Below are positions 22,155-30,830 of a DNA stretch of 64,000 bases, one piece after another; the first letter of the stretch is position 1; each line of letters starts with the position of its first letter. The position numbers and the translations under genes are program-made. Below the pieces are notes generated by a model. It had not been told where the DNA came from. It saw only the letters and a list, made by a program, of their open reading frames with translations, and made no database searches. The DNA comes from Treponema sp. (lineage in GTDB: Bacteria; Spirochaetota; Spirochaetia; Treponematales; Treponemataceae), in the NCBI GenBank assembly GCA_016286365.1, contig JAEESN010000001.1, forward strand, positions 372,001 through 436,000, read 5' to 3'.

Positions 22155-24158
22155 TTATTTTTTTGCTTTTTTTACACTCGAAATTGTAAAGTTGATGTTT
22201 TTCTCTGTTTCTTTACCGCTTTCAATATCCACATCCCAGATTAAAGTAGAAACAGAAGTCATGCCTGTTAAAACTTCTTCGAATGTATTCATGTCTGGAC
22301 GACGGAAGATAATCGGGCTGTAAAAATAAGAACACTTTTCGTTAGCTTCAAATGCAAATGAGTTTCCGTTTTCGTTATCTGTAAGGCGTACAACATCAAC
22401 TGTCTTAAGCTTGTTCTGTTTATTAAGTTTACGGGTAGAAGTCTCTGCAGGAATAATAATTCGTTCTCCCTTGTCTATAACTTCTACATTCATGTATTCA
22501 ATCGCATCTTTGTTAAACGTTATACCAGAAAAGTTTGATTCAACGGCGAATTTAGCCTTTAAAGGATAAGGACTTTCGTTTCTTAAGATGTACTGGACAT
22601 TCATACCATCTGAGTTGATTATATAACGCTTTTTAAGATAGATATTCTGTTTTGTCGGTTTGAAAACTGCTCTTGCTTCGAGCTGGATTTCGTGTCTGTT
22701 AGGTGCAAACTTGAGCTGTGAATAATGAATTCTCGAAAAAACTCCGTTTCCTGCAGGCTCATTCAAAATATATTTATCATACTGATCAGAAGAAAAAAGG
22801 AAATCAACAAAAAGACCGCGTTTATAAGAATCTGTTACTTCATCAAAATCTTCTATACGGGAAAGGTTATCAGCATAGTTACCGGCATTTTTGAATAAAT
22901 CAAGCTCGTAAATTGCACCGCTTATTAAAGAAATATATGCAAAATAATTCTGCATTCGGCACACGTATTCGTTCAGACCGTCACCATCGTAATCAAAATT
23001 AGTGATTGCTTCTTTAAAATTTCCCTCTTCGCGAAGAATTTTTTCTACTTCCATCAAATCTTTATAAGATTTCTGACGGCAAAGCACACACGAAAGAGTT
23101 CCATTGTCTGCATATAAAATACCAGAGCCAGTCTGAGCTTCCCAAAGTTTTTCTCTCGCAGCCTTCTTCCTCATCTTATCGGCTTTTAACTGATTTACGA
23201 GCATGCTCATATAAATCATGCGGTTATAAAGTGCATGAGAATTTGAATATGTCTTTAAATAATCAAAAATATTTGCTGGGCTCTTCATTTTTGAATCATT
23301 ATGAACATAATATTCAGAGCTCCACTCTGCAACTTTTTTATTTATTCCACAGACTACGTAAGAAGGAATCTTTACGATATTTGTCTTTTTAAATAATGAA
23401 GGCGTTGTTGTTTTGATTCTTGAATCAGGATTTGCCTTTAAATATTTTGCAAAGGATTCAAACCATTTTGCTTCGATTAACCTTGCCATTGACTTATGAT
23501 CAAGACAGATTGTTACAACCCTATCGGGCTGAAGCTGTACATATTTATCTTTCTTTTCGATTTTTTCAATTGCTTTAATAATATCAAGGGCAAAATCACG
23601 TGGAGAAATATCCGGCTCTGGATTAAATTCATCGTGATAAGGAAAAATTTCTATTGATTTTCCCATCTCTGTCATAACAAGAGGAAGGAATTTTTTATCT
23701 TCAGGTTTGATTATTGATCCATCTAAAACAATGTATTCTATTCCCGAAGACTGAATTGAATTTACTAAAGAAGAATCCCACGAATCCTGATACAAGGCAA
23801 TTCCGCGTGGTCTTTTTCCAAGATTCTGTCTTAATTCTGTAGAAAGAAGGTCAATCTGCCCATTTCTGTCTGCAGGATATAAAAGCGGAAGGATTGCATC
23901 GTAATATGCACCGCCAAGAACTTCTATCTGCTGTTTTTCTATGAGCTGTTTTAAAATTGTGAGTATTTCGTTCTTACGTTTTTTATAAAACTTAATCTGA
24001 TTTCCCGTGCAGTTAAAAGAAAAGGAAATCTCTGGATGAGTATATAGAAATTTGATTAAAGGTTTATAAACAGTCTGATAGTCTTTTTCGAGAATCTCGC
24101 TTGATTCCATGCAGTTGGAAATCGACTTTAAACTGAAGCAAATGTATATTGTACTCAT
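22155..24158 (-). CDS. GH57-like protein, probably catalytically inactive
   Basis: A 667-residue protein with the GH57 (alpha-amylase/4-alpha-glucanotransferase) layout and C-terminal DUF1925/DUF1926-like regions (KKRYIINSDGMNVQYILRN). The family's WLxERVW nucleophile motif reads GIALYQDSWD, placing Q124 where the catalytic glutamate should be. The usual N-terminal HQP motif is absent (ICFSLKSIS). The acid/base region reads VTICLDHKSM. It may bind alpha-glucans or regulate their metabolism without hydrolysing them. No signal peptide, so cytoplasmic. glgC is far away at 59276. The fold call is fairly sure; loss of activity is inference from motif alignment by eye. Confidence 0.7.
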   Translation of the reverse strand: MSTIYICFSLKSISNCMESSEILEKDYQTVYKPLIKFLYTHPEISFSFNCTGNQIKFYKKRKNEILTILKQLIEKQQIEVLGGAYYDAILPLLYPADRNGQIDLLSTELRQNLGKRPRGIALYQDSWDSSLVNSIQSSGIEYIVLDGSIIKPEDKKFLPLVMTEMGKSIEIFPYHDEFNPEPDISPRDFALDIIKAIEKIEKKDKYVQLQPDRVVTICLDHKSMARLIEAKWFESFAKYLKANPDSRIKTTTPSLFKKTNIVKIPSYVVCGINKKVAEWSSEYYVHNDSKMKSPANIFDYLKTYSNSHALYNRMIYMSMLVNQLKADKMRKKAAREKLWEAQTGSGILYADNGTLSCVLCRQKSYKDLMEVEKILREEGNFKEAITNFDYDGDGLNEYVCRMQNYFAYISLISGAIYELDLFKNAGNYADNLSRIEDFDEVTDSYKRGLFVDFLFSSDQYDKYILNEPAGNGVFSRIHYSQLKFAPNRHEIQLEARAVFKPTKQNIYLKKRYIINSDGMNVQYILRNESPYPLKAKFAVESNFSGITFNKDAIEYMNVEVIDKGERIIIPAETSTRKLNKQNKLKTVDVVRLTDNENGNSFAFEANEKCSYFYSPIIFRRPDMNTFEEVLTGMTSVSTLIWDVDIESGKETEKNINFTISSVKKAKK

Positions 24159-24256
24159 AAAACGATATACCGCTTCCCACCCTGTATGACTAACCTGCTC
24201 CTTTTTTGAATTCTAAACAATCGAAATTATTAACAATAAAATCTTTTCCCCAAGAT

Positions 24257-24871
24257 TTATTTCTTAATAACCTTCTTAATAATTTTATAACAAGATGACC
24301 AAATTTTAAAGTCTTTTTTCTCTATCCATTCAACTTTCTGCTCTTTTTGTATGAGCGAACAGCTGGTTGGATCGTTGTTACAGTTAGAACAGATTGCCAT
24401 CTTCGAAGTATTAACCGGAATAAGCTTTATGATGTGCAAAGGACAGATATCAATACATCTTCCACAGCCAATACAAAGTGATGTTACAACCGCAGTATTA
24501 TTTATGATTTTTATAGCCTGCTGAGGACATGCTTTTACACAGTCACCAAGGCCTATACATGAATATTTACAGTCGGTTCCGGTTCCATTATCAGAATTAA
24601 TCATAAAACAGGTGTGCTGTCTGTTAAAAATGGAACGGTCAACATTAAATTCTTTATTACATGAACACATAACAAAAGCTTTTTTATCTGAAAGTTTTGT
24701 TAAAGGAATATCCGGTGTAATATAATTTAATTCATCATCCGAAATAACGGCATCATCATCTGTGTAAGTGATTTCCCTTGTACTTTTAGGAGTTAATACA
24801 TAAAGGAAAAAACAGATTAAGATGGCTATAAGGATTATAAAAACACTTAGTAAAACGTAAGATAAAATCAT
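24257..24871 (-). CDS. rnfB: RnfB-like membrane-anchored ferredoxin
   Basis: 204 residues: an N-terminal transmembrane helix (about 5-27), a cysteine-containing Fe-S region, then two 4Fe-4S sites in CIGLGDCVKACP and CIGCGRCIDICP. This follows the RnfB pattern KYxCIGLGDCVKACP closely but lacks the longer C-terminal ferredoxin tail of many RnfB proteins. Last gene of the rnfCDGEAB-ordered operon, overlapping rnfA by four bases. In a standard Rnf complex this subunit receives electrons from ferredoxin. Confidence 0.8.
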   Translation of the reverse strand: MILSYVLLSVFIILIAILICFFLYVLTPKSTREITYTDDDAVISDDELNYITPDIPLTKLSDKKAFVMCSCNKEFNVDRSIFNRQHTCFMINSDNGTGTDCKYSCIGLGDCVKACPQQAIKIINNTAVVTSLCIGCGRCIDICPLHIIKLIPVNTSKMAICSNCNNDPTSCSLIQKEQKVEWIEKKDFKIWSSCYKIIKKVIKK

Positions 24872-25428
24872 TTAATCACCTCCGGATTAATCCACATTAC
24901 ATCCCATACAGAAATAATCAAAAAAAGAATCATCAGGAAAAGGAAAAGACGGCTGATGTATTTTTCAGGTTCAGTTTCGTTTTCAAGATTGCGTTTTCTG
25001 AATGAATAAACAAGAGGAATAATCACTGCTATAGAAACAAGACAGCTCAAACTTATAATTACGGCTGTAATAAGACTATTGCTTTCTGTAACAGAGAGTA
25101 AAACTACAAGATAAGAGAAAATAAATTCAGTTGCAGATTTATTTGTTGTAAGTCTGACAATTGCTTCTAAAAGAATTGTGATGCAAAGATAGATTAAAAG
25201 GCAGACAATCGGATACAGTTCAACAGATTCAAGCGGAACGAGTATCTTATCTGTAAAAAGATAACAGAGAACTGAACTTATGAGGATTGAAAGAATTACT
25301 TTTATAAGGTAAAAGAAATCTTTTTTTGTAAAGAAGTTGATTTCTGTTGTCTTATTGATTCCGATTCCATAAAGTAAAACGGCAGAACCGAAAAAGAAAT
25401 AATAGAAAAATGTGTAAATCAAAATCAT
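24868..25428 (-). CDS. rnfA: RnfA-like membrane subunit
   Basis: A 186-residue protein with about six transmembrane helices, placed exactly where rnfA lies in rnfCDGEAB clusters. Divergent: the usual N-terminal GxC and mid-protein NCA motifs that hold the membrane [2Fe-2S] cluster are not visible (LLYGIGINK and SVTESNS at the aligned places). Other cysteines are present but in hydrophobic contexts. ATGA overlaps at both ends. Without neighbours I would call it only an integral membrane protein. Confidence 0.6.
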   Translation of the reverse strand: MILIYTFFYYFFFGSAVLLYGIGINKTTEINFFTKKDFFYLIKVILSILISSVLCYLFTDKILVPLESVELYPIVCLLIYLCITILLEAIVRLTTNKSATEFIFSYLVVLLSVTESNSLITAVIISLSCLVSIAVIIPLVYSFRKRNLENETEPEKYISRLFLFLMILFLIISVWDVMWINPEVIK

Positions 25429-26090
25429 TTCTTTTCCTCCTTTTTATCTTCTTTTTTATCATCTTTTTTGTCTTCTTTAATTGAATCAGTATTGCGGATA
25501 ATATTTAATTTATTTCGGCTCATGATGTGGAAGAAAAGAATAACAGAAGAAAGAATTAATACACCCGGGATTGAAGCAAAAACAGAAAGTATGCTCAAAT
25601 ATTCAGGCGGGAAGATGATTTTTTCTACAATCTGGAAGCCCGAACCAAAATAAGTCAATGTACCGTAACCAAAAATATCGCGCAAAAGGAATATGAACAA
25701 TGCGTAGAAAGAGAAAGTAAGCGAATGTGTAAAACTGAACTTAATCCTTTTATTGAACGGTTCTTCATCGTTATTAAAAAGATATCCAATTACAAAGAAA
25801 GAAACCGGAGTAAGATACATTACAAATCCAAGTGTTAAAACAATTTCCGGATTAAGCATAATCATAAGCTGACGGAAGAAAATTGTTCCACAAATCAAGA
25901 AGGTAAAAATTACTGTAGACTGAAGTTCACCAAGCTTAAACTTTTTTACGATTGAATTTGCAAAAGTACCGATGAGCATTAAAAAGTTCAAAAGTAAAAT
26001 CAATACAAGGCCGTAAACAAAGCGTCCTGGAGAAGGAACAATCATTGCAAGAGTAGCCGATACAAATACATAAATAGATCTTCTTTTCAT
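25425..26090 (-). CDS. rnfE: RnfE-like membrane subunit
   Basis: A 221-residue multi-pass protein with about six hydrophobic helices and a charged KEDKKDDKKEDKKEEKK tail. Position between rnfG- and rnfA-like genes and the FTLxFxLLRDIFGYG stretch support RnfE. The usual LGLCP and VNC cysteine motifs are missing; the only cysteine seen is in a helix (FLICGTIFF). The lysine/glutamate tail is unusual for RnfE. Confidence 0.6.
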   Translation of the reverse strand: MKRRSIYVFVSATLAMIVPSPGRFVYGLVLILLLNFLMLIGTFANSIVKKFKLGELQSTVIFTFLICGTIFFRQLMIMLNPEIVLTLGFVMYLTPVSFFVIGYLFNNDEEPFNKRIKFSFTHSLTFSFYALFIFLLRDIFGYGTLTYFGSGFQIVEKIIFPPEYLSILSVFASIPGVLILSSVILFFHIMSRNKLNIIRNTDSIKEDKKDDKKEDKKEEKK

Positions 26091-26101
26091 CTTCTACCCC
26101 C

Positions 26102-26554
26102 CTACTCGAACAATTCCGGGATTCTTTTTGCCCAGTATTCAACGCGGATATCTTTGGAACCGCCGTTTATCTGATTTGCAATGCGTCCGTGAATTGAACA
26201 GAAACCTGCAAACTCAATGTTGTTTTCGTCGTGCATGATGTAAACTCCCGAAGCAGGACCATAAAAAGTAATTACCCTTAAGATGACTGCTTTTGCCTCT
26301 GTTCCGTTTTTATTTACAATATTGTATGCAGCAGCATTTGTAGTCATCGGATTTTTTATATCGATATAATCATTAATAATCCATTCGCCAGGCTGTTTTT
26401 CTTCCAGCACAGTTTCGATTGAATTTTTAAGATTGTCTTTCCAGAAACCTTTAGAAAGATAAACCATATATATTAAAACCAGAAAAGAAATTATGAGTAT
26501 TAAAAGAAAAATACCATAATTCTTAAAGAATTTTTTATTCGAAATATTATTCAT
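26102..26554 (-). CDS. rnfG: RnfG-like protein, short and without FMN motif
   Basis: A 150-residue protein with one N-terminal transmembrane helix (about 14-34) and a periplasmic domain. RnfG proteins are usually near 200 residues and bind FMN covalently through a threonine in an SGATxxS-type motif near the C-terminus. Here the chain ends after KRIPELFE with no such motif. The call rests mainly on its slot between rnfD and rnfE. Its start overlaps rnfD's stop by one base. Confidence 0.5.
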   Translation of the reverse strand: MNNISNKKFFKNYGIFLLILIISFLVLIYMVYLSKGFWKDNLKNSIETVLEEKQPGEWIINDYIDIKNPMTTNAAAYNIVNKNGTEAKAVILRVITFYGPASGVYIMHDENNIEFAGFCSIHGRIANQINGGSKDIRVEYWAKRIPELFE

Positions 26555-27645
26555 TACTCTTCATCCTCCTTATCTGAAAGTTTTTCTGCAACTTCCACAA
26601 GGCGTGTAAGTTTTTTATCGTTCTGTTTTTCTTCGATTACTTTGATTAAAAGATTAACTGTGTTACAGATTAAAACCGTATAGCACATACCTACCGCAGA
26701 ATATCCGCAGCCTGCAATTAAAAAGGCAATACAACCTGCAATAATACCGTAGATGATTTTTCCCGCTATGGTTATAGGTTTTGTTCCAAACCACTGTAAG
26801 AGGAATACTGCCGTAAAGATTGTTCCGCTTGTACAGAATGCAAGAATTAAATCACCCTGGAATAAAGGAGCCTTAGTGATTAAAGGAAGCACAAGTCTGA
26901 TTAAAAGTCCGTAAACGATTGTGAAAACCATCGGAATGATTCCAGAAAAAGCTCTGTCCGAAAAGAGGAATACAGAAGAAAAAAGTGTAAAAAGTGTAAA
27001 TCTGAATGCAGGAATTACTGAATGAGAATCCCATAAAAGCGAGATGATTCCTTCTGGTAATGTTACCTTAAACCAGTATAAAACCGTGCTGTTCAAAACC
27101 CCTGTAATCACGTTGTCAAAATCGTAAACCGGGAAGATTCCGTTTTTAACCATGAGCGCAGAAGGATTTTTTACAGAAAGAAAATCTGATGTTACAAGGC
27201 ATTCAGGGAAGTACATTTTTCCGATTGACCATGCAATTATTACCGCAACACATACGACATTTACCCACGAGTTTACGCAATTTGAAAAGATGATTTTTTC
27301 GATAGATAAAATCATGAATGCAAGGAAAAAGACAACTACAACCGGATAATTCTCCGGTAAAAACATTCCTATAAGAATGCCCTGAACAATAACTATGATG
27401 CTTGTAAAGCCCTGGTCTTTTTTAAAGAAATAACCGATTAAGGCCGTACATGCAGCACCCAGTGTAGAAGCACAGATTACTCCAAGAGCGTGGTAGCTTT
27501 TAGAAATTGCCAGAAAAAGAATCTGAACTAAAAGCATGATTAAAACCCTTATTGCAATTGCAGAAATAGAAGGTTTAATAAAGAAATATGGTTTTAAGAG
27601 AACCGGAGTTCTTTTTATCTTATAATCGAATTCATTGTTTCTCAT
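26554..27645 (-). CDS. rnfD: RnfD-like membrane subunit
   Basis: A 363-residue protein with about nine or ten transmembrane segments. The C-terminal third (GDLILAFCTSGTIFTAVFLL, TIAGKIIYGIIAGCIAFLI) matches NqrB/RnfD well. The expected covalent-FMN threonine motif (TGAT) reads ITGVLNST at residues 180-187, so the flavinylation site seems lost. Starts two bases after rnfC ends. Confidence 0.72.
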   Translation of the reverse strand: MRNNEFDYKIKRTPVLLKPYFFIKPSISAIAIRVLIMLLVQILFLAISKSYHALGVICASTLGAACTALIGYFFKKDQGFTSIIVIVQGILIGMFLPENYPVVVVFFLAFMILSIEKIIFSNCVNSWVNVVCVAVIIAWSIGKMYFPECLVTSDFLSVKNPSALMVKNGIFPVYDFDNVITGVLNSTVLYWFKVTLPEGIISLLWDSHSVIPAFRFTLFTLFSSVFLFSDRAFSGIIPMVFTIVYGLLIRLVLPLITKAPLFQGDLILAFCTSGTIFTAVFLLQWFGTKPITIAGKIIYGIIAGCIAFLIAGCGYSAVGMCYTVLICNTVNLLIKVIEEKQNDKKLTRLVEVAEKLSDKEDEE

Positions 27646-27647
27646 AT

Positions 27648-28961
27648 TTAGTTCTTATCCTTTATAGTTTTTTCAATATTTTCTTTTAATGCAGTAATAG
27701 TCTGACACAACGGAAGACGTGCTGTACAAACTGTATTACACAATCCGCATTCGGTACAAAGCAGAGATGTTGATTTATATTTTTCGAGTGTGGCAGTGCC
27801 GTTTACCATGTAGTTGTAAAGAATATCTGGGGAGATATTTACAGGGCAGACATAACGGCAGCTTCCGCAAAGAATACATTCATAAATATGATAGTCTGTA
27901 GTTTTAAATTCAGATACAAACTCTATCGACTTTACATATTTTGTAATAGGAATATCCATGCTGTTTACAGTGTATCCGCAGACAAGTCCGTTTATAACAA
28001 CAAGGGCCGGCTGTTCTTTAAAACCACCAAGCTGTGCAACAATATCCTTGATTCTGAATCCGAGCTTTACATCCAGAAAGCCCGAAGCATTAAGACAATT
28101 TCCCGAAAAATGAATGAATTTACTGATCGAAGGAACGCCTGTAACAATTCCCTTGTAAACATCATACATTGTGCACGAATCAACGTATAAATCATCCTGA
28201 GAGATGCTTATATTATTTGTCTTTTTAAACAACTTATTGAAAGTCTGTGCAATTTCCCGTTTAAATCCTGCAGGATATTTACCAGAGCCGATTTCCAGAA
28301 TATGTCCGTTTTTAATCCTTGAAAAATATTCAATAAAGCTTTTGTCAAAGTGTTCATCGATTGCAAAAACAACTTCTGTAGCATCCATTGCCTTTGCAAC
28401 AATTTCCGTACCAACAAGGATTTCGTCAAAGAAGAATTTTGTATAAAGCGAATCAGAAATTCTTAAAAAGTCTTCGTCAAAAAATCTTACGATGAGCGAG
28501 CGGTTCTTTCTTTTCTGCTGCTTCTTAATCTGTTCGCCAAGAGAACTTGGTTCATAAGTTAAAAATGTATTGATGATTCCGTATTCAGTTATTTTTGTGA
28601 TGATGGCACTTGAAGAAAGAGACTGCCAGTCTGCAGCCGGAGAAGGTTTACCGGTATAAGAGAATGAACCTCCAAGCTGAATTCTTACCGCATTTTCCAG
28701 GTTACCGTTCGGACATGTTGTAGAAATAATATCAAGAACTTTTCCCGGAATTGGTGAATGAATTACAGATTTATATCCGTCGCCGGAAGAAGGACGCGCA
28801 ATAATATCGCCTTCCTTAACATATTCTCCGGGACTTACAAGACATTTGCAGGAACAGTTTTTTTCCTGCGCCAGAGGAACAATAGCAATTTTTGGTAAAA
28901 AGGCCGTTCCCGAATAATGATAATCTTTTAATTTAGAAGATACGTCCTGTAAAGTGTTCAT
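27648..28961 (-). CDS. rnfC: RnfC-like Fe-S subunit
   Basis: A 437-residue protein. The N-terminal RnfC barrel-sandwich region (LVSPGEYVKEGDIIARP, IHSPIPGKV) and C-terminal ferredoxin domain are clear, with two intact 4Fe-4S sets: C362, C365, C368, C372 and C402, C405, C408, C412. The middle NADH/FMN-binding region is weak: the usual GLGGATFPT and NGAECEP motifs read EYGIINTFLT and VRFFDEDFLR. It may therefore not use NADH. Overlaps the upstream membrane gene by four bases. Confidence 0.78.
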   Translation of the reverse strand: MNTLQDVSSKLKDYHYSGTAFLPKIAIVPLAQEKNCSCKCLVSPGEYVKEGDIIARPSSGDGYKSVIHSPIPGKVLDIISTTCPNGNLENAVRIQLGGSFSYTGKPSPAADWQSLSSSAIITKITEYGIINTFLTYEPSSLGEQIKKQQKRKNRSLIVRFFDEDFLRISDSLYTKFFFDEILVGTEIVAKAMDATEVVFAIDEHFDKSFIEYFSRIKNGHILEIGSGKYPAGFKREIAQTFNKLFKKTNNISISQDDLYVDSCTMYDVYKGIVTGVPSISKFIHFSGNCLNASGFLDVKLGFRIKDIVAQLGGFKEQPALVVINGLVCGYTVNSMDIPITKYVKSIEFVSEFKTTDYHIYECILCGSCRYVCPVNISPDILYNYMVNGTATLEKYKSTSLLCTECGLCNTVCTARLPLCQTITALKENIEKTIKDKN

Positions 28962-30334
28962 TCTCTACCACCTTTTTTTATAATAGCTGAAATATAAATA
29001 AAAAGTAACATACCAAGAGTTAATATCATCATAATTATACTCAATATGCTAACATTGTAACTGCTCGAAGCCGTGTATCCGTAAACAGAATTTCTGCCCT
29101 GTGATTTTAAAACCTGCTCAATCGAATAAAAATCAAGGTTATCGATTGATGAAATTGTTTCGTTCACAAAAGCATCATCATATTTGAATACCTGATCAAC
29201 CTGCTTTATTTTTCCATCCTCTTTTACAAAGTGAGGATAAACTACTTCATCATCATAATTCTTTACGTTTGTAGATTTATAAGGATATGTTGTAACGTCC
29301 CAGTCCCATTTACAATAATCTTCGAGATTTGGAAGTTCTTTAGAAGAAATAGAAGATTCACCGGGAAGAAGAACGCGAGCAAAATGACCGGAAAAAGAAT
29401 CCGAAGAATTAAGGATAAAATAAACAAAGATGCATGCAACCATAACAACGCATACAATACATATTGTTTTAAGCTTTCCTGCAAAAAGAGAGGTAAGTCT
29501 TGCGTTACGGATGAATACATATTTGTAAGTTGATTTTTTATCTATGTCGTCATTAAAACTCTTACAGATGTAAAGAAGACAAAGGGATCCAAGAATTACG
29601 GCAAGAAGGAAAACAAACGAAATGAATGCATTTGTCACTGCAAGAAGGATTGAACATCCGGCGAATATATAAAATGAATGCGAAGTAAGAATTCTTTTTA
29701 CAAAACCTTCCCTCTGCCAGATATTAGCCATCATAAAGAAAACTACTAAAAGCATGAAAGCAGAAGCGGCGCACGAATAAAAAGGATTACAGAATACATA
29801 AAAAACAGGAAGAATTGCACTTAAAGCAAAGATGATTATATTCTTCACAAAAACAAGAAGAAGAACAGCAAGAATTATACTCAAAAGAGGAAGCACCCAG
29901 GGATAAGAAAAATTGCTGTCTATTCCGGCAACATTATCACCTTCTTCGATTAGTTTTACACAATCGTTCAGGTTTTCTCTGTACTGATTAGGGATGTAAT
30001 AAAGCCTGTATTGTTTTGATGAATCAAAAAAGTAGTTTAATCGTCCGTTTAAGTATTTATATCCGTTGTCGTAAGAATTAAGAGTGAACATCGATTTTTC
30101 TACTGAATCATTTTTTAATAAAACAGGAATCCTCTGATTTTCGTAACTCACAAATTCTTCTATTCCGCATTCGTTAAAAGCTGATGTAATGATTGAATCA
30201 TCAACTTGGGCCGGGATATATAAAACTGTATAATTTTCCCATAAACGTCCGCTTGGTATTGTTCTGTAATTAAAGAGAAGAAGTCCCGTACAAAAAGAGA
30301 TGATTAAACATATAAACTTTTTTAGTAAACTCAT
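28958..30334 (-). CDS. Unknown multi-pass membrane protein at head of Rnf-like operon
   Basis: A 458-residue protein: an N-terminal signal/anchor helix, an extracytoplasmic domain of about 120 residues, some six helices (about 145-270), another helix near 300, a second extracytoplasmic domain rich in D, Y and W (about 320-415) and a final helix. I do not recognise a family. ATGA overlap with rnfC and shared direction suggest it works with the Rnf-like complex, perhaps in assembly or as an added subunit. Confidence 0.75.
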   Translation of the reverse strand: MSLLKKFICLIISFCTGLLLFNYRTIPSGRLWENYTVLYIPAQVDDSIITSAFNECGIEEFVSYENQRIPVLLKNDSVEKSMFTLNSYDNGYKYLNGRLNYFFDSSKQYRLYYIPNQYRENLNDCVKLIEEGDNVAGIDSNFSYPWVLPLLSIILAVLLLVFVKNIIIFALSAILPVFYVFCNPFYSCAASAFMLLVVFFMMANIWQREGFVKRILTSHSFYIFAGCSILLAVTNAFISFVFLLAVILGSLCLLYICKSFNDDIDKKSTYKYVFIRNARLTSLFAGKLKTICIVCVVMVACIFVYFILNSSDSFSGHFARVLLPGESSISSKELPNLEDYCKWDWDVTTYPYKSTNVKNYDDEVVYPHFVKEDGKIKQVDQVFKYDDAFVNETISSIDNLDFYSIEQVLKSQGRNSVYGYTASSSYNVSILSIIMMILTLGMLLFIYISAIIKKGGRE

Positions 30335-30344
30335 TCTGCCATGC

Positions 30345-30830
30345 CTATTTTAATAAAGAAAAAGCAAGGCCAATTAAAAATCCTAATAAACACCCCAGAA
30401 TAACCTGCATTGGTGTATGACCGTTTACTTCTTTAAGTGGTTTATAATTTTCTAAAACTTTTGTATCTTCAAGTTCTTTTCCAAGTTCATTTAATTTCTG
30501 AGCCTGTATTCCGCTTGAACGCCTTACTCCTAAAGCATCTCTTATAACAACTAAAAGGAATACGAATGAAACAAGGAAAAGATCTGAATTAAGTCCGTTT
30601 TTAAAAGCTATTGTAGTACACAAAGATGTTACAATTGCAGAGTGACTCGAAGGCATACCGCCTGTTCGCCAGAATAAAAGTTCAACAAATTCACCTGGAG
30701 TGTGAACCTTAGAGCCAATAATATTAATTAATGTTTTTATAAACTGTGCACAGAACCAGCTTACGATTCCTGCAAGCAAAGTTGGATTAGTAAGAAAAAG
30801 TTTAAGCTGTTCTTTTAAAGTAATCAACAT
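30345..30830 (-). CDS. DUF212 (YuiD-like) membrane protein
   Basis: A 161-residue protein of the divergent PAP2 / acid phosphatase-like DUF212 family, with WFCAQFIKTLIN, TGGMPSSHSAIVTSL, VIRDALGVRRSSGIQA and GHTPMQVILGCLLG. These keep the SxxH and H motifs of the phosphatase superfamily. About three to four membrane helices. First gene of the minus-strand run leading into the Rnf-like genes, ten bases before the next gene. Confidence 0.85.
   Translation of the reverse strand: MLITLKEQLKLFLTNPTLLAGIVSWFCAQFIKTLINIIGSKVHTPGEFVELLFWRTGGMPSSHSAIVTSLCTTIAFKNGLNSDLFLVSFVFLLVVIRDALGVRRSSGIQAQKLNELGKELEDTKVLENYKPLKEVNGHTPMQVILGCLLGFLIGLAFSLLK

Follow-up and report, generated by a model that had tools for sequence, protein, structure and literature searches.

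The Rnf-like gene cluster of Treponema described here encodes a complex from which nearly all electron-carrier sites have been erased, and this variant Rnf must therefore do something other than ferredoxin-driven ion pumping. We analysed the cluster in a 64,000-nucleotide stretch of DNA from Treponema sp. (GenBank assembly GCA_016286365.1, contig JAEESN010000001.1, positions 372,001 to 436,000), hereafter the window. Its six rnf-like genes lie on the minus strand, running from 28961 to 24257 in exactly the order RnfC-D-G-E-A-B, and neighbouring genes overlap or abut, with gaps of -4 to +11 bases within the block. This arrangement had been recognized in a first-pass annotation, which also proposed that a standard ferredoxin:NAD+ pump should not work here and that the complex has been repurposed. 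The former proposal is well supported by mutants of Acetobacterium woodii (PMC11889175), and the latter by purifying selection on the cluster, its retention throughout the genus, and its retention in genomes that lack a canonical Rnf.

Electron-carrier sites of the variant complex

Site losses were read by alignment to canonical Rnf in the window and in about 30 same-genus genomes; negative calls for sites and families depend on the sensitivity of the profiles used. The membrane [2Fe-2S] cluster AE1 is normally bound by four cysteines, of which RnfA and RnfE supply two apiece; all four are absent from the RnfA-like (186 amino acids; 24868-25428) and RnfE-like (221 amino acids; 25425-26090) proteins of the window and from the sampled orthologues. 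Equally absent from both are the covalent-FMN SGAT segment at the C-terminus of RnfG, the RnfG-like protein (150 amino acids; 26102-26554) comprising an N-terminal transmembrane segment and part of the periplasmic domain, and the FMN/NAD(H) loops GMGGASFP, ECEPY, and YPQG of RnfC (437 amino acids; 27648-28961). The first-pass annotation had reported all three of these losses, and each withstood alignment.

In the RnfD-like protein (363 amino acids; 26554-27645), the covalent-FMN threonine is also missing: where canonical RnfD has DAISSATVLS, at the SGAT/SSAT position, alignment to canonical and intermediate sequences places FLSVKNPSAL (27154-27183). The riboflavin Asp is replaced by Trp, and one Asn of the GxNxxNP segment is retained. 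The annotation was right that the TGAT site of RnfD is lost and wrong in locating it at ITGVLNST (residues 180-187), a candidate ruled out by alignment through intermediates. That segment forms part of a variant-specific motif, D177-x3-T181-x3-N185-x11-P197-x-G199, whose fixed positions do not differ among 26 variant RnfD proteins, drawn from three families.

What survives is cytoplasmic. All eight cysteines of the two RnfC [4Fe-4S] clusters are present in every row examined, four in a first motif (residues 362-373, CILCGSCRYVCP; 27843-27878) and four in a second (residues 402-413, CTECGLCNTVCT; 27723-27758), and these two clusters are the only redox element that is never lost. The RnfB-like protein (204 amino acids; 24257-24871) retains two [4Fe-4S] motifs at about residues 101-147 (24431-24571; family match and site table), but its N-terminal [4Fe-4S] domain (CxxCGxxxC), which normally lies by the membrane anchor, is gone, and no matching Pfam domain was detected. 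An earlier view that the ferredoxin modules of both RnfB and RnfC are intact is thus upheld for RnfC and only in part for RnfB. There is no His or Cys among the positions conserved at 90% or more in the A, E, G, D, and X proteins of the family (X being encoded next to RnfC, see below), and this speaks against a metal or haem site having taken the place of those lost. The RnfE equivalents of R67 and E115, residues of the A. woodii Na+ path, are likewise not retained in the alignment.

In A. woodii, electrons pass from RnfB through AE1, the FMN of RnfG, the FMN and riboflavin of RnfD, the RnfC clusters, and the FMN of RnfC to NAD+. Mutants in the AE1 cysteines, in FMN-G residues (T185, Y113), or in riboflavin residues (N123 and D249, whose single mutants are both part of the inactive variant) do not grow autotrophically and do not reduce NAD+ (PMC11889175). 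In the window complex, the determinants for AE1, the RnfG Thr, and the riboflavin Asp are all missing at once. Because these sites are lost and A. woodii mutants of the same sites are inactive, the U-shaped, ion-pumping path from ferredoxin to NAD+ should not be possible; alignment and analogy together strongly support the conclusion that the variant complex is not a ferredoxin:NAD+ pump.

The subunits are nonetheless recognizable descendants of Rnf. The RnfA-like and RnfE-like proteins have no Pfam or NCBIfam match and the RnfG-like protein has none in NCBIfam; the RnfC-, RnfD-, and RnfB-like proteins match NCBIfam Rnf subunit models only below curated cut-offs (for RnfC, TIGR01945 at 175 bits against a cut-off of 246), and the RnfD-like protein passes Pfam PF03116 (E = 2e-28). 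When profiles of same-genus orthologues were compared by hhalign with canonical Rnf subunits, the latter mainly from the same genome set, the best match was the protein's own counterpart for C (5e-38), D (1e-24), B (1e-23), E (1.6e-10, probability 97), and A (1.3e-5, probability 80). The ferredoxin motifs also produce a match between the RnfB and RnfC profiles. RnfG is linked through intermediates: the G protein of locus L108, in the same cluster of another family of the order, still matches the FMN-binding domain PF04205, and in profile comparison the G protein of family f5 matches that of the genus with a probability of 90.

The variant thus shares with RnfABCDGE, as known from the A. woodii and Clostridium tetanomorphum structures, its subunit set, gene order, and A/B/C/D/E homology, together with the two [4Fe-4S] motifs of RnfC and two of those of RnfB. 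It differs in lacking the AE1 cysteines, the flavinylated threonines of D and G, the riboflavin Asp, the RnfC loops, and the RnfB N-terminal FeS domain, and in being embedded among genes for X, a DUF212 protein, and a glycoside hydrolase family 57 (GH57)-like protein. The related Na+-NQR (NqrABCDEF) offers a precedent for cofactor loss within one of these folds, as NqrA is related to RnfC and carries no redox cofactors (PMC12174285). Na+-NQR holds the D/E cluster, the B/C flavins, and NqrF, whereas the variant has lost those and kept the RnfC clusters.

Conservation of the cluster and a second, canonical operon

The conserved unit is larger than the six rnf genes and reads DUF212-X-C-D-G-E-A-(B)-GH57-like (22155-30830 in the window, all on the minus strand, with gene starts taken as open reading frame starts). 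The block runs unbroken upstream into X (28958-30334), a 458-residue membrane protein for which no Pfam, NCBIfam, or PDB relative was found, and then into the first gene of the cluster, a DUF212 divergent PAP2-family membrane protein (30345-30830; PF02681, E = 4e-42) present in most cluster loci. Downstream, after 98 bases, lies the last gene, encoding a GH57-like protein of the 4-alpha-glucanotransferase/amylase family (22155-24158; PF03065, E = 2.7e-22; PF09095, E = 1e-14; match to PDB 1k1w). A scan for promoters and terminators performed no better than on shuffled sequence.

We compared the nine genes of the window with those of an 87%-identical relative. All had dN/dS values of 0.05-0.15: 0.05 for C, 0.07 for X (whose synonymous rate is near saturation), 0.09 for D, A, and the GH57-like gene, 0.13 for E, 0.14 for B, and 0.15 for G. 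The cluster is therefore under purifying selection. A variant RnfD profile, which gives the cluster's D protein E-values far below those of canonical RnfD, found this protein in 85 of 85 genomes of the genus that are at least 90% complete, with best E-values of 1e-95 or lower.

The first-pass annotation had suggested searching the genome for another rnf operon, of canonical type, and for an ApbE flavin transferase; both are present. The same contig carries an apbE-rnfCDGEAB operon (locus L037, 4382-10733) whose G protein has SGAT and whose D protein has SSAT, while A and E both have their cysteines; in the source genome, PF02508 and PF04205 score above cut-off only in this operon. Most sampled genomes of the genus hold both operons, and several near-complete ones have no canonical operon. 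Ten near-complete genomes (G018, G020, G028, G034, G069, G073, G114, G119, G213, and G295) contain the variant but have no protein that scores above threshold for PF02508, and three of them (G018, G034, and G213) also lack ApbE. The variant can thus exist where ApbE flavinylation is impossible. Together, its genus-wide retention, its dN/dS values, and the variant-only genomes indicate that it is not a relic and does not serve the canonical complex as an accessory. Separately, three genomes of the order (G042, G046, and G057) encode a further RnfE homologue (identity about 37-41%) that may represent a third type of Rnf.

Related clusters and the probable Treponema pallidum locus

The same cluster occurs in other sampled families of the order, and X served to trace it to further orders of the class; X accompanies cofactor-bearing and cofactor-less Rnf clusters alike. 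Loci L166, L169, and L171, from other orders, have the AE1 cysteines, an SGAT or TGAT in RnfG, and the RnfC loops GxGGATFP, ECEP[FY], and YPQG, and L164 agrees with this full-cofactor state as far as its RnfC fragment reaches. At the flavin motif of RnfD, L164, L166, and L169 have Thr and L171 has Ser. These four clusters share with the window the Rnf gene order and the neighbours X, GH57-like, and sometimes DUF212, are its direct relatives by tree, and differ from it in the cofactor sites they hold; judging from their sequences, they likely represent the ancestral, working state.

Between the two extremes lie intermediates that retain different subsets of sites: L108 (AE1, D, and G), L110 (AE1, D, and probably G), L109 and L070/L072 (AE1), L112/L113 and L111/L115 (D), and L167 and L170 (D and G, not AE1). 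PF02508 scores descend by steps, from 110 bits for E and 90 for A in L108, through 54 for E in L070, 34 for A in L112, and 17 for E in L111, to no match in the window. In trees, rows group largely by family, a pattern consistent with vertical inheritance. Losses were counted on a tree in which a single canonical row serves as outgroup and several branches are weak. They number one for the RnfC loop (on a single early branch), two for FMN-D, two to five for FMN-G, five or six for AE1, and eight or nine for rnfB.

The GH57-like neighbour shows changes of its own. We take E123 of TLGT to be the catalytic nucleophile Glu of a GH57 glucanotransferase/amylase. In an active-site alignment, the window's protein has Gln at this position; most f3 and f4 rows still have the Glu, which is lost in family f5 and in the genus, so that the GH57-like catalytic site disappears in lineages that have lost Rnf cofactors as well. 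In L070 and L071 (family f4), the GH57-like gene is followed by one for an Mpl/MurC-like peptidoglycan-precursor ligase, named by sequence only.

One of the variant-only genomes, G295 (one contig of 1,139,633 bp), we take to be very probably T. pallidum Nichols. A 2015 paper in mBio reportedly made the proposal of an RNF in this species. The single RnfD-like match in G295 marks locus L149, which encodes the GH57-like, A, E, G, D, C, and DUF212 proteins and lacks X and B. ApbE is present in this genome, and no PF02508 protein was found in it. L149 retains the eight RnfC cysteines and none of the AE1, FMN-D, FMN-G, riboflavin-Asp, or RnfC loop sites.

For T. pallidum, three papers (PMC7512555, 2020; PMC10194888, 2023; PMC11717252, 2025) postulate an RNF pump that is noncanonical and depends on flavin, and make it part of a flavin-based energy model. 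The available passages of these papers give no gene numbers; because the genome holds no other candidate, we infer that their RNF is very probably L149. The literature assumes a flavin-dependent pump, whereas the locus has none of the membrane, periplasmic, or nucleotide sites tested, and the published T. pallidum RNF pump therefore probably lacks the required cofactors. Within a partial coverage of the literature, no paper was found that describes the T. pallidum Rnf-like locus as being without cofactor sites, or that names two or more of TP0148-TP0153.

Candidate roles of the variant complex

We lean toward the view that the variant is a redox-disabled Rnf scaffold repurposed for a membrane or envelope task, with the RnfC Fe-S clusters serving as a sensor or structural element. 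It would descend vertically from a genuine spirochaetal Rnf whose redox chain was lost step by step. The window's family retains the RnfC-D-G-E-A architecture, has no known electron-carrier site left in the membrane or the periplasm, and has lost the FMN/NAD loops of RnfC; the assembly is evidently conserved and would be kept by selection for another task. On this reading it works, redox-inert, as a scaffold in the membrane or as a transporter-like machine, serving the envelope together with the X, DUF212, and GH57-like proteins, and the RnfC [4Fe-4S] clusters on the cytoplasmic face would set the state of this complex, whether by sensing redox or as part of its structure. Of this proposal, the redox-inert scaffold or transporter-like machine is well supported, and the part given to the RnfC clusters is more tentative. 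The PAP2-like membrane protein and the GH57-like protein next to the rnf genes point weakly to the envelope. A precedent of another kind for a role of Rnf outside electron transfer comes from PMC12718326, where a section heading reports a toxin whose action on Bacteroides goes through Rnf and does not depend on electron flow.

Several points weigh against this scaffold reading. We infer the positive function from context alone, and X cannot always be needed, since it is absent from the probable T. pallidum locus. Variant RnfG has no significant profile-profile match to canonical RnfG, the reason why it was assigned by position and intermediates. AlphaFold models built from three-sequence alignments were too poor for a structure search (pLDDT of 55 for G and 42 for X). 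Finally, a non-covalent flavin or a lipid-soluble carrier, which would leave no motif in the sequence, may remain.

A possible, though doubtful, alternative is truncated electron transfer, in which the [4Fe-4S] clusters of RnfC, with or without those of RnfB, shuttle cytoplasmic electrons between ferredoxin or flavodoxin and a soluble partner, and the membrane subunits are only an anchor. The RnfC cysteines are invariant everywhere, the RnfB [4Fe-4S] motifs are largely kept where the gene survives, and the loss of the RnfC nucleotide loop on a single early branch is consistent with a switch of partner. This alternative leaves unexplained the strong purifying selection on four cofactor-free membrane subunits, and it sits poorly with the repeated loss of rnfB, including from the probable T. 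pallidum locus, which still holds C-D-G-E-A. The annotation's further idea, that the complex couples ferredoxin to something else, is not supported: RnfB, the ferredoxin-entry subunit, lacks the N-terminal domain that feeds the membrane cluster and has been lost again and again.

We regard it as improbable that the complex is still a noncanonical ion pump, of the kind proposed for T. pallidum, in which non-covalent flavins or other carriers replace the lost cofactors. Overall homology and gene order are kept, the probable T. pallidum genome encodes ApbE, and the papers cited above treat the T. pallidum complex as a noncanonical RNF that depends on flavin. Against this, neither covalent-FMN site is left, nor are the riboflavin Asp, the AE1 cysteines, or the nucleotide loops of RnfC; three near-complete genomes hold the cluster without ApbE; and the RnfE equivalents of R67 and E115 are missing.

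A role as accessory, decoy, or assembly factor for the canonical Rnf of the same cell would fit the co-occurrence of both operons in most sampled genomes of the genus, but is very improbable given the ten variant-only genomes, the probable T. pallidum among them. That the operon is a decaying, functionless relic is barely credible: catalytic sites have indeed been lost progressively, in the GH57-like neighbour too, but every gene shows low dN/dS, reading frames are intact, gene starts overlap, and the cluster is retained in all near-complete genomes of the genus and in a reduced genome of 1.14 Mb.

The natural series from full-cofactor clusters through partial ones to those with almost none lets one ask what role the Rnf scaffold has beyond electron transfer. 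It also bears directly on the flavin-based energy model of T. pallidum, since the one Rnf-like locus detected in the genome that is probably its own is without every membrane, periplasmic, and nucleotide site tested. We give an even chance to the broader proposition that, in the treponemes at large, an entire respiratory ion pump was turned, one subunit after another, into a conserved membrane machine that is redox-inert; this machine would be the only 'Rnf' of the syphilis spirochaete, and there would then be no Rnf-type energy conservation in that organism.

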